Positions 22,364 through 31,529 of a stretch of 31,718 nt of DNA are shown in pieces. The stretch is from IMG/VR virus record IMGVR_UViG_3300042905_002881, positions 1 to 31,718 of that record; one strand, written 5' to 3'. This DNA comes from a virus. Within the stretch, counting starts at the first letter, position 1, and every line of letters starts with the position of its first letter. The notes under the pieces are model-generated. The model did not search any database, was not told where the DNA came from, and was given only the letters and a program-made list of their open reading frames with translations. Made by a program: the position numbers and the translations under genes.

Positions 22364-22388
22364 CGAATATTCACAAATGCTGTATAAT
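22360..22388 (+). promoter_or_regulatory. Sigma70-type promoter giving a leaderless uvsE transcript
   Basis: TTGACG (22360-22365) and TATAAT (22383-22388) are separated by 17 bases. The usual start seven bases on is 22395, exactly the A of the uvsE ATG. The -10 lies in the loop of an inverted repeat, TGCTGTA-TAAT-TACAGCA (22378-22395 region), which could be an operator. No Shine-Dalgarno sequence is present. Confidence 0.75.
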
Positions 22389-22394
22389 TACAGC

Positions 22395-23447
22395 ATGACT
22401 ACATCTATTACTCCGCGTATTGGTTTTTGTTGCAAATGGCTCAATGATCCCAGCGAAACTGGCGGTATGAAAGTCAACGCCAAGGATCGTGACATCAATG
22501 GCCGATCAACCACCATGCGCTGGCTGCGTGAGCACAAAGACGAAGCTGAACAGCGCCAATGGGATATCATGAACCATAATGCTCGTGCTGCCTTGATGAT
22601 GGTGGAGCGTGTGGGCACATTGCCACCTGAACGGCGCATGCTGCGGCTGGGATCAGAAATGCTGCAAGGCTATACTGAACCTAGCTGGATTGACTGGTGG
22701 CAACGGCAGGAAATTCAAGATCACTGTGCAAAAATCTTTGCCCCAGTGGGCGATGCTGCTCGACGCCTGGGTGTGCGACTCAGCTTTCACCCTGGACAAT
22801 TTTGTGTGTTGGCCAGTGAAAATGATGGTATTGTGGAGCGCAGTATCCTAGAGTTTGAGTATCATGCAGACATGGCTCGTTGGATGGGCTATGGTCAAAC
22901 CTGGCACGATCATGGTTTCATGATCAACATTCACTTGTCGGGTCGCGGCGGCCCCGAAAAGTTTCTGCGCACACTCAAGAGATTGAGCCCCGAGGCTAGA
23001 AACCTCATAACTATCGAGAACGACGAGATATCAAATGGTCTGGATACTACTTTGGCTGTGGCTGAGCATTGCGCTCTTGTGCTGGATATTCATCACCACT
23101 GGATCAACACTGGCGAATACATCGATCCCAAGGAAGATCGCGTTCAGCGGGTTCGTGAGTCTTGGCGTGGTGTGCGTCCTGGCATGCACTTTTCTACTAG
23201 CCGCGAAGATCTTTTGGTTGGGCATGATCGAAGCGTTCGACCAAACCTTGCTGAACTTCTTGCTAGAGGTTATAAAAAACAAAAGCTCCGCGCTCACAGT
23301 GATTTCTGTTGGAACGTGGCTGTAAACGATTGGGCCCTGGGCTTTACCACTGACTTTGACATCGAAGTTGAAGCCAAAGGCAAGAACATAGCCAGCCAAC
23401 AACTTTATGAACAATATATTTCTCAGTACTCTAATCTGGATTCGTGA
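22395..23447 (+). CDS. uvsE: UV-damage endonuclease UvsE/UvdE
   Basis: The 350-residue product has the TIM-barrel metal-site motifs of the UV damage endonuclease family: RIGFCCKWLND at the start, RRMLRLGSEML, LSFHPGQFCVLAS, HADMARWMGYG, INIHLSGRGG, TIENDEISN, LDIHHHWINTGEY and RAHSDFCWN. It nicks DNA 5' of UV photoproducts. Length is close to bacterial members. The ATG at 22395 is chosen over 22377 because the predicted transcript begins at 22395 and the earlier codon lies in the promoter. The product extends slightly over the following small membrane protein gene. Confidence 0.93.
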   Translation: MTTSITPRIGFCCKWLNDPSETGGMKVNAKDRDINGRSTTMRWLREHKDEAEQRQWDIMNHNARAALMMVERVGTLPPERRMLRLGSEMLQGYTEPSWIDWWQRQEIQDHCAKIFAPVGDAARRLGVRLSFHPGQFCVLASENDGIVERSILEFEYHADMARWMGYGQTWHDHGFMINIHLSGRGGPEKFLRTLKRLSPEARNLITIENDEISNGLDTTLAVAEHCALVLDIHHHWINTGEYIDPKEDRVQRVRESWRGVRPGMHFSTSREDLLVGHDRSVRPNLAELLARGYKKQKLRAHSDFCWNVAVNDWALGFTTDFDIEVEAKGKNIASQQLYEQYISQYSNLDS

Positions 23448-23734: not shown

Positions 23735-23764
23735 TAAATAACTTTGAACTTCAAAGGAGAAATC

Positions 23765-24763
23765 ATGTTCAAATATATTGTTACCTTGCTATCTGCACTA
23801 GCATTTACCGCACAAGCACAGACAACAATCAATGGAGCCGGGGCATCATTCCCGGCTCCTCTGTATTCAAAGTGGGCCGAAGCCTATCACAAAGCTACCA
23901 ACATTCGGATAAACTATCAGAGTGTGGGCTCAGGTGCCGGGATTAGACAAATTGAAGCAAAGACAGTGACATTTGGTGCCAGCGACATGCCGCTGACCGA
24001 CGCCCGACTAACAGAATTGGGCGCATTTCAATTTCCCACAGTTATCGGTGGTGTGGTGCCAGTGATCAACCTCAAGGGCATTGAACCTGGATCCATGAGG
24101 CTCACCGGCACAGTGATAGCTGATATCTTTTTAGGCAAAATCAAGAAGTGGAACGATCCTGCTATCACAGCGTTGAATCCCACTCTCAAACTGCCGGATC
24201 AAGACATTGTGGTGGTTCGACGAGCCGATGGGTCTGGCACAACATTTATCTGGACCAACTATCTCAGCAAGGTCAGCGCAGAGTTCAAATCCACCATTGG
24301 TGAAGGCACAGCAGTAAACTGGAAGGTGGGTGCTGGCGGCAAAGGCAACGAAGGTGTATCTGCCATGGTGCGACAGTTACCGGGCTCACTAGGCTATGTT
24401 GAATATGCCTATGTCAAACAGACCAAGATGAACTGGGTCAGCGTACAAAATGCAGCAGGCACCTGGGTTGCTCCCACAGAAGATACATTTAGAGCAGCAG
24501 CCGCCAATGCTGATTGGAATCGCACTTACTTTCAAATCTTGACAGATCAAAAGGGTAGAGATGCTTGGCCCATCACTGGTGCTACATTTATTCTTGTGCA
24601 TACAAAGTCTGACAAGCCCGAAGGTGTCAAGGCAGCTCTGGAGTTTTTTGATTGGTCATTTGCCAACGGTGACAAAATGGCCGATGAACTAGATTATGTG
24701 GCATTGCCCGCCTCAGTCAAAACCAAAATACGTGCCGACTGGAAACAATTGGGATTAAAGTAA
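23765..24763 (+). CDS. pstS: PstS, periplasmic phosphate-binding protein
   Basis: The 332-residue product has a signal peptide (MFKYIVTLLSALAFTAQA, cleaved after residue 18), then TTINGAGASFPAPLYSKW, SVGSGAGIRQIEAKTVTFG and RADGSGTTFIWTNYL, the phosphate-cleft segments of PstS. The C-terminus ends with a conserved helix (KTKIRADWKQLGLK). In bacteria PstS feeds phosphate to the PstCAB importer, which the phage lacks here, so it would work with the host importer. AAAGGAG precedes the ATG. It has a three-repeat Pho-box-like element upstream and a strong terminator, making it a single-gene unit. Sequence is close to betaproteobacterial PstS by eye. Cyanophages are known to carry pstS too. Confidence 0.95.
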   Translation: MFKYIVTLLSALAFTAQAQTTINGAGASFPAPLYSKWAEAYHKATNIRINYQSVGSGAGIRQIEAKTVTFGASDMPLTDARLTELGAFQFPTVIGGVVPVINLKGIEPGSMRLTGTVIADIFLGKIKKWNDPAITALNPTLKLPDQDIVVVRRADGSGTTFIWTNYLSKVSAEFKSTIGEGTAVNWKVGAGGKGNEGVSAMVRQLPGSLGYVEYAYVKQTKMNWVSVQNAAGTWVAPTEDTFRAAAANADWNRTYFQILTDQKGRDAWPITGATFILVHTKSDKPEGVKAALEFFDWSFANGDKMADELDYVALPASVKTKIRADWKQLGLK

Positions 24764-26562: not shown

Positions 26563-28239
26563 ATGGATAGATATAAAGAACTTGAACACCTAGTACAACA
26601 ATTTAGAAGAGAACTACCCCAAGACCCAAGATACGCAGACAGATTGGCAGAAGAACTAGAACTCATAAGAGATCAAAACTTTTCAAGACATTTCTTACGG
26701 GTGAGAGAAATATTAGATCTCACTACAGACATTCCACACATCACTAGAGGATCAGCAGGTTCAAGCCTGGTGTGCTGGCTCATGGGCATCAGCGATCTTG
26801 ATCCTGTGGCAGAAAACATTCCCATAGCACGTTTCATGAATCCCAAACGTGACGACCTTCCTGATATTGATCTAGACTTTCCGCATTGGCAACAGGCCAC
26901 CGTGATGGATCGCATATTCCGACGCTGGCCAGGACAAAGCGCCAGAGTCTCAAACTATGTGATGTACAAAGAAAAATCAGCCAAGAGAGAAGCAGCCAAA
27001 CGACTTGGGGCCAAGGGCACACTCAAACGCGGATTTGAATTCAGTCAAGTATTGCCCCCAGAAGAAATAAAAGAAGCAGAACGAGTCACAGCCAAGTTGT
27101 TGGGCAAGAAACGCTGTATTTCAAAGCACTGTGGTGGCATCTTGATTTTTGATCGAGCTGTGCCCAAAAGCCTAATCAATGGCAACAATCAAATACTGCT
27201 GGACAAATATGAAACTGAAGATCTTGAGCACTTCAAGATTGATATTTTGGCCAATCGCGGACTTAGTCAATTATGGGAAATTGACCAACGCCCACTCACA
27301 GACTATCCCGAGCATGATGAAAAAACCAGCGACTTGTTAGCACGTGGCGATGTACTGGGTGTGACACAGGGCGAAAGTCCAGCCATGAAACGACTGTTTA
27401 GAGCCTTGAAGATCCGAAGCCGCAGTGAATGTACCTTGGCCACTGCACTGATACGTCCGGTGGCCACGCAAGGACGTCGTAGAGCCAGTGCTTTTCAAGA
27501 CTGGAGTGCTGATACCATACAACAGGACACAGTGGTATTTGAAGATGATGCCATCACCATGATTGCTGACATTCTAGAATGCGACATGTACACCGCAGAC
27601 ATGTGGCGCAGAGCATTTGCCAAACGCAACGAGGAAAAAATCTATGAGTTCATGCAGTTGATTGGCGATCATCCCAAACGCGATAGTGTGTTGTCTGCTC
27701 TGCGTGAACTCAGTCACTTTGGATTATGTCGTGCCCATGCTACCAATTTGGGGCGACTGATCTGGGCATTGGCTTATCACAAGGCACACAATCCTCGAGA
27801 GTTTTGGGCAGCCTGTTTGAAACATTGCGAAGGCAGTTATAGTCGTTGGGTGTACTGGCAAGAAGCCAAACTAGCGGGTGCTGTGCCTGCACCACTGGAA
27901 GGTGGTGAATGCGAAGAGTTGGCCCGCACAGGACGTTGGAGTTCCGGCAGATTCATACCAGCCTGCACTGAAATACGCAGGCCTGGCGAAGTTGAATTTC
28001 TTGGACTGGTTGCCAATTACCGGGTGTTCAAAAGCGGTGCCAAAGACTACATAACCTTTGCCACACTAGGCACCGGCAATGGCCGATATCTGGACGTAAT
28101 ACTGCCACACGCTGTGTCTTTTAGTGATCAACCAATCTTGTGGGGCAAGGGCCGATTGGACTTTACAAACAGTAGCGAATGTGTTAAAGTATACAAGAGC
28201 AAACGCATGCGATTGCAAGACATAGCACACATTGACTGA
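26563..28239 (+). CDS. PHP-less DNA polymerase III alpha (DnaE)-like protein
   Basis: The 558-residue product has the C-family polymerase palm: TRGSAGSSLVCWLMGISDLD, PDIDLDF with D101 and D103, and FKIDILANRGLS with D226, matching E. coli DnaE D401, D403 and D555. The fingers region is recognisable (ALIRPVA...RRAFAKR), and a C-terminal OB-like domain follows (VEFLGLVANYRVFKSGAKDY). It lacks the PHP domain normally at the N-terminus, the clear clamp-binding motif and much of the usual 1,100-residue length. It may be a repair or translesion polymerase related to DnaE2/ImuC. AAAGG precedes the ATG. The stop overlaps the next gene (TGATG). Confidence 0.85.
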   Translation: MDRYKELEHLVQQFRRELPQDPRYADRLAEELELIRDQNFSRHFLRVREILDLTTDIPHITRGSAGSSLVCWLMGISDLDPVAENIPIARFMNPKRDDLPDIDLDFPHWQQATVMDRIFRRWPGQSARVSNYVMYKEKSAKREAAKRLGAKGTLKRGFEFSQVLPPEEIKEAERVTAKLLGKKRCISKHCGGILIFDRAVPKSLINGNNQILLDKYETEDLEHFKIDILANRGLSQLWEIDQRPLTDYPEHDEKTSDLLARGDVLGVTQGESPAMKRLFRALKIRSRSECTLATALIRPVATQGRRRASAFQDWSADTIQQDTVVFEDDAITMIADILECDMYTADMWRRAFAKRNEEKIYEFMQLIGDHPKRDSVLSALRELSHFGLCRAHATNLGRLIWALAYHKAHNPREFWAACLKHCEGSYSRWVYWQEAKLAGAVPAPLEGGECEELARTGRWSSGRFIPACTEIRRPGEVEFLGLVANYRVFKSGAKDYITFATLGTGNGRYLDVILPHAVSFSDQPILWGKGRLDFTNSSECVKVYKSKRMRLQDIAHID

Positions 28240-28547
28240 TGGCCCGACTACACATATATCCACACAGCGAACCTCAACAGGATTTGCACATAGTGGCAGA
28301 TCCTGCCGCACTGAGAGAACTAGCACATGCTCTGCTGAGTGTGGCCAAAAACCCCAACAGTTTTGAAAGACTAAGATTACACACCAGTGATGGACACGAA
28401 TATACAGCTATGATTGTGTCAGGAGTGAGTGAGGATGAATGGCAAACTATACCCCCGGCGTATGCCAAGTCTACAGTTCCTGCTATCTCAACACTGGAAG
28501 ACTATCACAGTCTGCGCAAAGAATTGAAACAAGTCAGCTCCGGCTGA
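28239..28547 (+). CDS. Conserved hypothetical protein, 102 residues
   Basis: The product contains DLHIVADPAALRELAHALLS and a beta segment FERLRLHTSDGHEYTAMIVS, then a helical, charged tail. The plan of a short helix plus a DGHEY strand pair recurs in small bacterial and phage proteins of unknown role. It starts on the TGATG overlap with the polymerase gene, so it may be a partner or accessory of that protein; this is only context. Its end overlaps the convergent desaturase gene by 14 bases. Confidence 0.75.
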   Translation: MARLHIYPHSEPQQDLHIVADPAALRELAHALLSVAKNPNSFERLRLHTSDGHEYTAMIVSGVSEDEWQTIPPAYAKSTVPAISTLEDYHSLRKELKQVSSG

Positions 28548-29241
28548 GCTTGGCTAATCCTAGAAATCTAAACACCGTTAGCCACATCCAACCTATATCA
28601 AACTCAAACCATTTATTGCTGAGTTTGGGACTGGCGGGTGAGAGATGGTGGTTGTTGTGCAACTCTTCGCCACCAATGATAATTCCCCAAGGAATAATAT
28701 TACGGCTGAGGTCGTTGGTGTTGCCATTTTGATATCCCCAATAATGCCCTACGCCGTTGATAACGCCTGCTGCCCAAAATGGAATCCATATCATTTGTAT
28801 GCTCCATATCAACAGTCCCCACCAACCGAAACAAATTAAATTTATACCCAATAACAAAACTATTCCCAGACGGCTGTGTGTAGAGTATAAGTTACGCTCA
28901 ATCCAATCATCGGGTGTACCAACACCATAGGCATTGACCATGTTGGTATCTTTGGATGCTGAGTGATACAATCCGGCTCCCTGTAACAAAACACGCCAAA
29001 ATCCAAACACATGGGGGCTGTGTGGATCTCCTGCCACGTCACTGAATCTGTGATGCTTGCGATGTATGGCAACCCACTGCTGGGTAATCATGCCGGTTGT
29101 GAGCCACAACCAAAAACGCATGAAGTGTTCAAGCACCGGCGCAAAAACAATGCCTCGATGTGCTTGTCCACGATGCAGGTAAAGAGTGACACACACTATG
29201 GTAATGTGCGTCATTACCAGTGTGGCTAAGAGTTCTATCAT
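28534..29241 (-). CDS. Acyl-CoA / fatty-acid desaturase
   Basis: The 235-residue product has the histidine boxes of membrane delta-9-type desaturases: HRGQAH (H23, H28), HRKHH (H60, H63, H64) and HNNHH (H195, H198, H199), plus an NGVGHYWGY segment with H166. Hydrophobic stretches at about 5-20, 34-55, 126-148 and 146-162 suit a membrane diiron enzyme that adds a double bond to acyl chains and raises membrane fluidity. It is shorter than the usual 300 residues but has all boxes. Fatty-acid desaturases are known in cyanophages. The start follows the 49-residue gene's stop after three bases, so the pair forms a minus-strand unit. No strong ribosome binding site is seen. Confidence 0.9.
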   Translation of the reverse strand: MIELLATLVMTHITIVCVTLYLHRGQAHRGIVFAPVLEHFMRFWLWLTTGMITQQWVAIHRKHHRFSDVAGDPHSPHVFGFWRVLLQGAGLYHSASKDTNMVNAYGVGTPDDWIERNLYSTHSRLGIVLLLGINLICFGWWGLLIWSIQMIWIPFWAAGVINGVGHYWGYQNGNTNDLSRNIIPWGIIIGGEELHNNHHLSPASPKLSNKWFEFDIGWMWLTVFRFLGLAKLSRS

Positions 29242-29465: not shown

Positions 29466-31529
29466 ATGTCCAAAATTTTTAAAAAAATACTAACTAGCCC
29501 ATGGACCGCATTGCTGACTCTGGCACTGTGTGCAGGCGCAAGAATTGCTGATCCTGCTTTTGTGGAAAGTGTGAGACTACGGTATTTTGACACGCTGATT
29601 ACTGGAACCGAGGTCAAGGTCAGTGAGCAAGTGCATCTAGTAAATATTGACGATGCTGCGATAGAAAAGTTAGGGCAGTTTCCATTCCCACGTGGACAGT
29701 ACGCCAACATCATACAGGATCTTTACCAACGCAATGCAGGATTGGTAGTGTTCAACATATTCATGCCTGATGCTGACCGTGCTGGACAGGATGCTGTTTT
29801 GGCATCTGCGTTGAAGCAAATGCCCACAGTGTTACCGCACACAGCAACCAATGATGATGTGCGCTCAAGTGTGCCACCGTTTCGTCCTGGTGTGAGTGTG
29901 ATAGGTTCAGGTGAACCCGGAATACCATATCGGCACATTCAACCCAATGTAAGGAGCATTAATGAAACAGCAAGCGGTATTGGTATTGTTAATACTTTGC
30001 CTGAAGTGGACGGAGTCGTACGCCGAATCCCCATGGTTGCAAACATCGGAGGACAACTCTACCCCTCGATCAGTCTCGAAACCCTCCGTGTTGCCTCCGG
30101 CGACCCCTCTTTCCAGGTTAGGGTCAACGACGGAATCATTGAAGCCGTTAGAATTCCGCAGTTTGGAAAAATTCCAACAGACAATCTTGGTAGAATCTGG
30201 GTGGATTGGTCATCCCGACCGACCCAACATTCCCTGGCTAATTTGCCAAAGGACTTCCAAGGTGGAATTGTTATCGTCGGACTTACCGCGAGGGGGCTCA
30301 ACAACCCCGTCGCAACTGCTGGAGGAGAAGTCTATCCGCACTTCGTGCAAGCCGCTGTAATAGACACAGTGGTATCAGGGCGCATGATTCAACGTCCTGA
30401 TTATGCAGATGGTGCGGAAATCATTGTCTTGATAGCAGGTGGTTTGCTACTTTTATTCTTAACGAGGTGGACATATGTTGGGCTTGGTGCGGTTGTTGTG
30501 TTGGTTGGTGGCTCCGTGGTTGCTAGTTGGTATTCTTACCATGGCTTTTTATGGTTATTTGACGCTACTGCCTTTGCAGGTGGCACAATCTTGGTCGCTC
30601 TGCATGCCTACGGTGTCAAGTTCGTCTCAGAGTTCCTCCAAAAGCAAGCCATAAAGAAACAGTTTGCTGGCTACTGCTCAAAAGAAGTTGTGGAGATGCT
30701 ACAGAAAGATCCAGACTTGATCAAGCGTGGTGTGCGTAAAGATGTATCAGTTATGTTCTCAGACTTGCGTGGCTTTACTCCTATCGGCGAGCACTACGGT
30801 GATGACGTAGGCGGGCTTGGCAAATATATGAACGGCTACATGGATAGTATCAGTCGTCCTATCATGGACAACAGAGGCATGGTCATAAAGTATGTGGGCG
30901 ATGCAAGTATGCACATTCACGGTGCTCCTATTGAAGATCCAAATCATGCTAGAACTATTGTCAAGGTAGGACTTGAAATGTTGGATGCTGTTGACGAATA
31001 TACTAAACTAATGGAAGCACAGGGCTTGCCTCCGGCCGCAATGGGTTGGGGTTGTAATACAGGTATTGGTTTTATTGGCGAAATGGGTTCGACACAAAGA
31101 CACAGCTATGACATCTTAGGCGACATGGTTTCAACGGCCGCTCGACTAGAAGCACGTTGTAAAGCCTATGGTGTGCTGTGTATCATTGGTGCTGAAACAT
31201 ACAACAGAACCCGAGATGACTTCTTCTATCTAATGCTGGACAACTTACAACCCAAAGGCAAAACTGTAGCAGACTTGATCTATACAGCATTGCGTATCAA
31301 AGGCGATGTCAAAGAATATTACCGCGCCAGAGAAACACACAACAAGATGCATGCCTTGTATCGAGAACGCCAGTTTGATGCTGCCGCTATACTATGTGGA
31401 GAACTTGCGGGATCATTTGATGGACAAATGGACAAGTATTATCACATGTGGACCGAACGCTGTGAGTTCATGAAACAACAAGACTTGCCTGACAACTGGA
31501 ACGGTGAGTTTGTGGCTCACGAAAAATAA
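29466..31529 (+). CDS. CHASE2-domain adenylate cyclase (class III)
   Basis: The 687-residue product has an N-terminal anchor, a CHASE2 sensor domain (about 30-310), three membrane segments (about 317-382) and a class III cyclase domain. Motifs: VMFSDLRGFT (D433), VIKYVGDASM (K475, D479), and YDILGDMVSTAARLE (D549, R560). K475 and D549 predict ATP as substrate. The transition-state Asn expected at 556 is Ser, so activity may be low. The tail after residue 625 resembles the 119-residue protein at 18043. Codon usage changes in 29990-30360, where a second ORF is nested. The ATG at 29466 is preferred over a TTG at 29448; no strong ribosome binding site is visible. Confidence 0.88.
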   Translation: MSKIFKKILTSPWTALLTLALCAGARIADPAFVESVRLRYFDTLITGTEVKVSEQVHLVNIDDAAIEKLGQFPFPRGQYANIIQDLYQRNAGLVVFNIFMPDADRAGQDAVLASALKQMPTVLPHTATNDDVRSSVPPFRPGVSVIGSGEPGIPYRHIQPNVRSINETASGIGIVNTLPEVDGVVRRIPMVANIGGQLYPSISLETLRVASGDPSFQVRVNDGIIEAVRIPQFGKIPTDNLGRIWVDWSSRPTQHSLANLPKDFQGGIVIVGLTARGLNNPVATAGGEVYPHFVQAAVIDTVVSGRMIQRPDYADGAEIIVLIAGGLLLLFLTRWTYVGLGAVVVLVGGSVVASWYSYHGFLWLFDATAFAGGTILVALHAYGVKFVSEFLQKQAIKKQFAGYCSKEVVEMLQKDPDLIKRGVRKDVSVMFSDLRGFTPIGEHYGDDVGGLGKYMNGYMDSISRPIMDNRGMVIKYVGDASMHIHGAPIEDPNHARTIVKVGLEMLDAVDEYTKLMEAQGLPPAAMGWGCNTGIGFIGEMGSTQRHSYDILGDMVSTAARLEARCKAYGVLCIIGAETYNRTRDDFFYLMLDNLQPKGKTVADLIYTALRIKGDVKEYYRARETHNKMHALYRERQFDAAAILCGELAGSFDGQMDKYYHMWTERCEFMKQQDLPDNWNGEFVAHEK
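29962..30360 (+). CDS. Candidate nested secreted protein within the cyclase gene
   Basis: In the +1 frame of the cyclase gene a 132-residue ORF begins at 29962. AAGGAG lies five bases before the ATG. The N-terminus is a plausible signal peptide: MKQQAVLVLLILCLKW, then TESYA with possible cleavage near residue 21. The rest is rich in Ser, Thr and Pro. No family is recognised. The frame covers the stretch where the cyclase's codon usage is unlike that around it, which could reflect two overlapping coding constraints or imported DNA. The ORF may be a chance product. Confidence 0.35.
   Translation: MKQQAVLVLLILCLKWTESYAESPWLQTSEDNSTPRSVSKPSVLPPATPLSRLGSTTESLKPLEFRSLEKFQQTILVESGWIGHPDRPNIPWLICQRTSKVELLSSDLPRGGSTTPSQLLEEKSIRTSCKPL

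Follow-up and report, generated by a model that had tools for sequence, protein, structure and literature searches.

A reading frame nested in a phage cyclase gene

The DNA analyzed here (the window) is the complete 31,718-nt stretch of the IMG/VR record IMGVR_UViG_3300042905_002881, a 31.7-kb virus sequence with genes for ribonucleotide reductase, DNA ligase, and a DNA polymerase III of the alpha type. The last full gene of the window (29466..31529, + strand, taken here as frame 0) encodes a protein of 687 residues in which a CHASE2 sensor precedes a class III adenylate/guanylate cyclase domain. Both Pfam matches are above the cut-offs (CHASE2, 4e-37; Guanylate_cyc, 4e-14), which places the product among the CHASE2-class III cyclases. 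The gene is adjoined by a fatty acid desaturase gene on the - strand (28534-29241), and a desaturase gene likewise lies beside the cyclases of loci L002 and L004. On the + strand, the region also encodes a small protein that matches the immunity protein Imm32 below threshold (28239-28547, E 0.00036), a periplasmic-binding-protein-like product (PBP_like_2, 23744-24763), and a UvdE UV-endonuclease (22377-23447); the last two are perhaps auxiliary phage genes. Among the neighbors that we scanned (10 genes of the window and 20 ORFs at other loci), there was neither a consistent partner gene near the cyclase nor an i-spanin gene. FecR is found among the cyclase neighbors in L040, L151, and L099, and a curlin repeat in L040 and, below threshold, in L084. 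In L083, a small ORF directly upstream of the cyclase (L083:1710-1976) matches the Rz1-like lysis protein LysC, though below threshold.

The initial annotation of the window had noted AAGGAG, an ATG, and a 132-codon frame with a signal-peptide-like N-terminus in the +1 frame of the CHASE2 region. All these elements are indeed there. The frame, called nested gene 1 below, spans 29962..30360 on the + strand, with its ATG at 29962, 132 sense codons, and a stop at 30358-30360. A Shine-Dalgarno (SD)-like TAAGGAG (29950-29956, + strand) precedes the ATG with a spacer of 5 nt. The product starts with MKQQAVLVLLILCLKWTESYAES..., where a single Lys is followed by a hydrophobic core (best 10-residue Kyte-Doolittle mean of 3.62). 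A rule of thumb predicts a signal peptide over residues 1-21 (29962..30024) with possible cleavage after S-Y-A, which are residues 19-21. It would be followed by a disordered linker (residues 22-68, 30025..30165; pLDDT below 50 over residues 18-68) and by a predicted three-stranded beta sheet (residues 69-132, 30166..30357) with strands at 72-82, 93-104, and 119-131. Its two cysteines of interest, Cys95 (30244..30246) and Cys129 (30346..30348), overlap a Leu TTG and a Val GTG codon of the cyclase, respectively. Judging from the sequence comparisons described below, this ORF is very probably a gene.

The nested frame is kept in one clade of phage cyclases

We collected homologues by using the cyclase and nested protein 1 as queries against viral contigs, and added the window record and one Melnitz phage. 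Among the matches listed, this gave at least 158 loci and at least 95 distinct cyclases including that of the window, each represented by one row. Frame status was scored over window codons 166-298. The +1 frame is free of stops in 26 of the 95 rows, window included, two of them being partial (L086 with 89 codons and L098 with 105). Five more rows (L149, L150, L155, L156, and L158) have two stops each, both upstream of a later ATG of their own. The other 63 rows, which we call stop-type, carry 3-17 stops in the +1 frame of the nested-gene-1 columns. The remaining row, L152 (L152:2480-4507), has three such stops.

Stops in homologues, which would have spoken against a gene had they been scattered, thus occur in 69 of the 95 rows (the 63 stop-type rows, L152, and the five rows with later starts), but they are not scattered, since the frame is kept within one clade. 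In a tree built from cyclase residues 6-161, outside the ORF, the frame-keeping rows and L152 form a single clade of 28 of the 89 rows with support 100/98. The tree left out L086, L097, L098, and L119, the open row L111 is unlabeled in it, and its root rests on a single long branch. L152 is the only member of the clade to have lost the frame, a natural loss, and in the permutation test described below it still falls short of the expected number of stops (2 against 6.4). One gain followed by one loss would explain this distribution. Within the clade, the ATG, the open frame, and the positive and hydrophobic N-terminus are preserved despite synonymous divergence, as is the SD-like site, except in sub-clade B. 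These comparisons support the idea that evolution has kept the +1 nested frame open in one clade of phage CHASE2-cyclases.

The clade is diverse, as its open rows include cyclases that are just 48-60% identical overall to that of the window. Over the catalytic part (residues 421-620), identity to the window is mostly 39-52% in these divergent rows (51-68% in L123), and mostly 84-98% in stop-type rows, a few blocks of which are at 72-74% and Melnitz at 57-60%. Since the catalytic parts of these open rows diverge while those of the stop-type rows match the window, the nested frame tracks the CHASE2 half of the cyclase and not its catalytic half.

Outside phages, 28 bacterial CHASE2 loci were compared. 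Only L171 and L180 lack +1 stops in the region; the remaining ones have 1-13 stops, with L182 covering merely 29 codons. Two contigs of a Rhodobacteraceae bin (L160 and L165), with cyclases that share 50-52% identity with that of the phage, may be phage contigs binned with their host. A tblastn search of nested protein 1 against 50,697 phage records gave no match at E values up to 1.

Depletion of stops and codon use

In the window alone, the absence of +1 stops compares with 3.1 stops expected when synonymous codons are permuted within the region (p=0.008), and with 8.8 expected from codon use elsewhere in the gene (p given as 0.0 in 5,000 draws). For the 26 open rows, permutation predicts 1.6-4.7 stops where none is observed, with p at or below 0.05 in 23 rows and of 0.051-0.061 in the other three. 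Resampling from the codon use of their own gene predicts 3.3-14.6 stops, with p<0.02 in all 26. The five rows with later starts, scored from their own start region, give permutation p-values of 0.017-0.064 and resampling p-values of at most 0.0002. A Fisher combination over seven lineages that differ pairwise at 40% or more of their fourfold sites results in p of about 1e-9, and these p-values are approximate because the lineages are related. As a control, the permutation was applied to every fourth stop-type row (16 of 63). Thirteen of these fit the null, and three have p<0.05, two of which are near-copies (L028 and L066).

For a sliding scan we used 12 frame-keeping and 37 stop-type representatives, picked so that their fourfold difference was 0.45 or more; the same set served in the codon analyses of the second nested ORF. 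Mostly stop-free +1 windows over codons 168-287 are found in frame-keeping rows only (in 10 of the 12, then three times in 12 of 12), and codons 336-383 are mostly free of +1 stops in both types of rows. In the +2 frame, no window is mostly stop-free in either set of representatives. Depletion of +1 stops also occurs elsewhere, with z down to -8.7 in stop-type representatives. This general depletion, together with the low p-values of three of the 16 stop-type controls, makes the permutation an imperfect null.

The claim that the ORF coincides with a patch of atypical codon use fared less well. The mean excess codon surprise is higher in the ORF than elsewhere (0.123 against 0.051 nats), but blocks outside the ORF are equally high and the maximal segment (30096-30497, with an offset chosen by the analyst) is displaced from it. 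As the patch is weak in the window, we dropped it as independent evidence. The codon patch, one of the two arguments initially raised against chance, carries less weight than had been stated. Across homologues, NTA codons make up 2.4% of the ORF and 8.2% of the rest of the gene in the 26 open rows, against 10.9% and 9.8%, respectively, in stop-containing homologues.

Start signals and N-termini across the clade

An SD-like match of 4-7 nt lies 5-9 nt ahead of the ATG in 21 of the 29 complete ORFs. The other eight form sub-clade B, none of which has such a site before the nested ATG. For comparison, 94 of the 688 ATGs of the window have a comparable match, and an SD-preceded ATG is found in only 2 of the 63 stop-type rows, where it opens at most 17 codons. 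Nested starts with an SD-like match occur at four relative positions (-11, -10, 0, and +10). In several lineages the nested ATG comes 0-3 codons after an in-frame stop, and in L148 an alternative ATG upstream, at -19, is also possible.

The +1 hydropathy peaks at codon 172 (2.6-2.8) in rows starting at -11 to 0, whereas the group starting at +10 peaks at codon 184 (2.67) and has just 0.15 at codon 172. Stop-type rows have 0.70 at codon 172 and 1.70 at codon 184, the latter being a milder counterpart of the peak of the +10 group. Over the rest of the +1 frame, stop-type rows are fairly hydrophobic and frame-keeping rows mostly polar. In all 27 N-termini inspected, the n-region is positively charged overall, and there is a hydrophobic core as well as one or more candidate cleavage sites with small residues, under a loose rule applied without a control and distinct from SignalP. 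The lipobox [LVI][ASTVI][GAS]C is absent from the first 45 residues of all 27. We therefore rejected a lipoprotein of the Rz1 type (o-spanin): there is no lipobox and the enclosing gene encodes a CHASE2-cyclase, not an i-spanin.

Selection and predicted structure of the nested protein

At conserved residues, fourfold divergence is lower in the ORF than elsewhere in groups A (0.26 against 0.40-0.62) and D (0.26 against 0.34-0.50). The reduction is small in group C and nearly absent in group B. We also compared changes that alter both proteins with those that are silent in the nested one (NN/NS), by a count of our own that resembles OLGenie and has no bootstrap. Over the ORF region, groups A, B, and C have NN/NS values of 0.46-0.52, compared with 0.61-0.63 for stop-type rows. 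Values near those of the stop-type controls are found in group D (0.61) and in the comparisons of A with C (0.57) and of A with B (0.62). Constraint on the amino acids of nested protein 1 thus appears visible but modest.

AlphaFold, given 27 nested sequences, predicts a helix at the N-terminus, disorder in the middle, and a three-stranded sheet at the C-terminus. In this model, 44 residues reach a pLDDT of 70 (mean 58.7, pTM 0.33), with blocks of the sheet at 81-90 and a dip to 57-64 over residues 101-120. In the control, made from the same frame of 27 of the 63 stop-type homologues with stops read through, long helices are predicted and 3 residues reach a pLDDT of 70 (mean 58.1, pTM 0.24); these rows were picked largely among those with the fewest stops. 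The mean pLDDT is thus nearly equal in gene and control, and just the distribution differs.

Cys95 and Cys129 are both present in 16 of the 31 frame-keeping rows and both absent in 14, and L099 has Cys129 alone. The two are present as well in L152, where the frame is lost. In stop-type rows the two occur together in 8 of 63, about as predicted from their separate counts (31 and 16). Going by the predicted strand limits, the register of the strands would fit their pairing (95+129 = 93+131). Because this distribution follows the tree, it does no more than hint at a disulfide.

Searches for relatives of nested protein 1 gave no match in Pfam and NCBIfam for the sequence of the window. The best E value against PHROGs is 0.0075, in 3 of the 27 members, which is not convincing, and the best values are 0.41 against PDB sequences and 0.54 for the predicted fold in Foldseek. 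A VIA match (best Z 4.2, to SasG) is in the range of common arrangements, and we do not claim homology on its basis.

A second nested frame

The scan brought up a second ORF in the +1 frame, between the CHASE2 and cyclase domains (nested ORF 2, 30475..30654, + strand), with a hydrophobic product of 59 residues. An SD-like GAGGTG (30464..30469, + strand) precedes it and contains the AGG codon of cyclase Arg334. Among the 94 rows that cover this region, 91 have an ATG within seven codons of its position in the window, and the first 48 codons are stop-free in 85. The length is 47-61 residues in 76 of the 91 ORFs, and a 15-residue stretch with a mean hydropathy of at least 2 is present in 76 of them. 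Codons 336-383 are stop-free in 35 of the 37 stop-type representatives (11.1 expected by permutation) and in 11 of the 12 frame-keeping ones (2.0 expected). Nested ORF 2 seems, from these comparisons, to be kept more widely than nested gene 1. An ATG at its start position is absent from Melnitz (L082) and from the 28 bacterial CHASE2 loci.

Codon use around the start is unusual. AGG encodes Arg334 in 45 of the 49 representatives, compared with 7.7% gene-wide, and none of the 423 conserved columns departs more strongly in codon use. Tyr337 is TAT in all 44 representatives having Tyr. The AGG alone could also reflect a translational pause before membrane insertion, but a pause site fits the ATG and the open frame less well. 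A restart giving a soluble cyclase after the ORF 2 stop was considered and rejected: over codons 381-402 of the 49 representatives, a frame-0 ATG is found in L151 only (GTG and TTG being left unweighed).

A probable exported protein and the alternatives

The observations support the reading of the initial annotation, a signal-peptide protein nested in the cyclase gene, and we consider it likely that nested gene 1 is an overprinted gene whose product is translated and exported. Ribosomes would start internally on the cyclase message at AAGGAG/ATG (29951/29962), as the comparison of homologues suggests, and translate the 132-codon +1 frame into a protein with a signal-peptide-like N-terminus. 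This protein would probably be exported by Sec to the periplasm and may be cleaved near residue 21, leaving a mature part of about 110 residues. The mature part is predicted to consist of a flexible linker and a small beta-sheet domain, which in the subgroup of the window may be pinned by a Cys95-Cys129 disulfide.

The role of such a protein is a more tentative matter. CHASE2 domains are extracytoplasmic sensors, so that a partner of the sensor is an economical guess for an exported nested protein. Within the envelope, nested protein 1 might then plausibly act upon, or next to, the CHASE2 sensor with which it shares its DNA, a possibility to which we would give somewhat less than even chances. 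About as likely is an independent job, in which the nested gene is real and its product exported but serves as a superinfection-exclusion or lysis-related envelope protein that uses the cyclase message. Small exported or membrane proteins are common in phage superinfection exclusion and lysis, and Rz1 within Rz is the classic nested exported gene. Against such a role for the present protein, there is no convincing family match, no lipobox in any of the 27 N-termini, and no spanin encoded by the enclosing gene, although a new kind of superinfection-exclusion or lysis protein would still fit.

We find it improbable that there is no gene at all and that the open frame results from base composition, codon bias, or a recombined patch, with the signal-like start being an accidental +1 reading of the conserved CHASE2 stretch GIGIVNTLPE. 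As would fit a recombined patch, subgroups resemble each other more over the ORF than in its flanks: amino-acid identity between A and C is 0.78 over the ORF region, against 0.64, 0.58, and 0.44 in the flanks. The bacterial L171 and L180, free of +1 stops, are GC-rich (GC3 of 0.85 and 0.94), and the low p-values of three of the 16 stop-type controls also agree with such an origin. But the permutation conditions on the region's own codons, SD-like matches mark start sites in four positions, and sub-clade B, with a GC3 of about 0.25, has no stops where its own codon use predicts 10.7-14.7. Moreover, synonymous sites are largely randomized between A and B (fourfold difference of 0.67), so that inheriting one patch would not suffice to exclude stops.

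Ribosomal frameshifting from the cyclase frame, which would give a truncated CHASE2 with another tail and involve no internal initiation, is compatible with the conserved open +1 frame taken alone. It seems very unlikely, as it needs no SD-preceded ATGs at several positions, some of them 0-3 codons past an in-frame stop. Least likely of all is a constraint on the nucleotides (RNA structure, pausing, or a regulatory element) rather than on a coding frame, which would agree with the synonymous conservation raised in parts of the ORF region among open representatives but gives no reason for a stop-free run in +1 and not in +2, nor for start signals at several positions.

Returning to an overprinted gene with an exported product, the two nested frames can be put together in a more speculative way, which we regard as possible but doubtful. 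One signaling gene would contain two out-of-frame genes. The older, near-universal one would lie over the membrane segment and encode a small hydrophobic protein; the younger would lie over CHASE2 and encode an exported one. The cyclase and its membrane and periplasmic partners would then share their DNA as a compact module and travel together when catalytic domains are swapped.

Relation to known systems

The arrangement resembles Rz/Rz1 of phage lambda and its relatives in that a small protein, exported in the case of Rz1 and probably so here, is encoded in the +1 frame inside the gene of a membrane-anchored envelope protein. It differs in that the enclosing gene encodes a CHASE2 sensor cyclase instead of an i-spanin and in the missing lipobox (27 of 27). 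Phage CHASE2-class III cyclases of the same family are present in the Melnitz phages (MZ577095-8; PHROG 35576, of unknown function). Melnitz (L082) and the other 62 stop-type rows are without nested gene 1, and Melnitz is also without the start of nested ORF 2. A literature search that was light on subscription journals and bioRxiv turned up no paper that describes genes nested in CHASE2-cyclases of phages.

Annotation readily overlooks genes nested on the same strand. To our knowledge, there are few for which the clade of origin is clear, sister sequences are without the gene, and the start codon varies between lineages. If our reading is true, one could trace over about 30 diverged sequences how a secreted protein arose within an enzyme gene. 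It also suggests that phage-encoded cyclases come with hidden envelope proteins, which would matter for the role of these sensors during infection. Overprinted, out-of-frame overlapping genes of viruses and bacteria have been reviewed (PMC8227390). Nested gene 1 resembles them in that it would give a novel protein drawn from the second frame of an older gene and limited to one clade; it differs in belonging to a large dsDNA phage, in overlapping a signaling enzyme, in having a signal-peptide-like start at several positions, and in being accompanied by a second nested ORF.

The cyclase gene itself is a mosaic, in that different phages combine the CHASE2 type containing nested gene 1 with quite dissimilar catalytic domains (29466-31529 in the window; L084, L088, L151, and L153).
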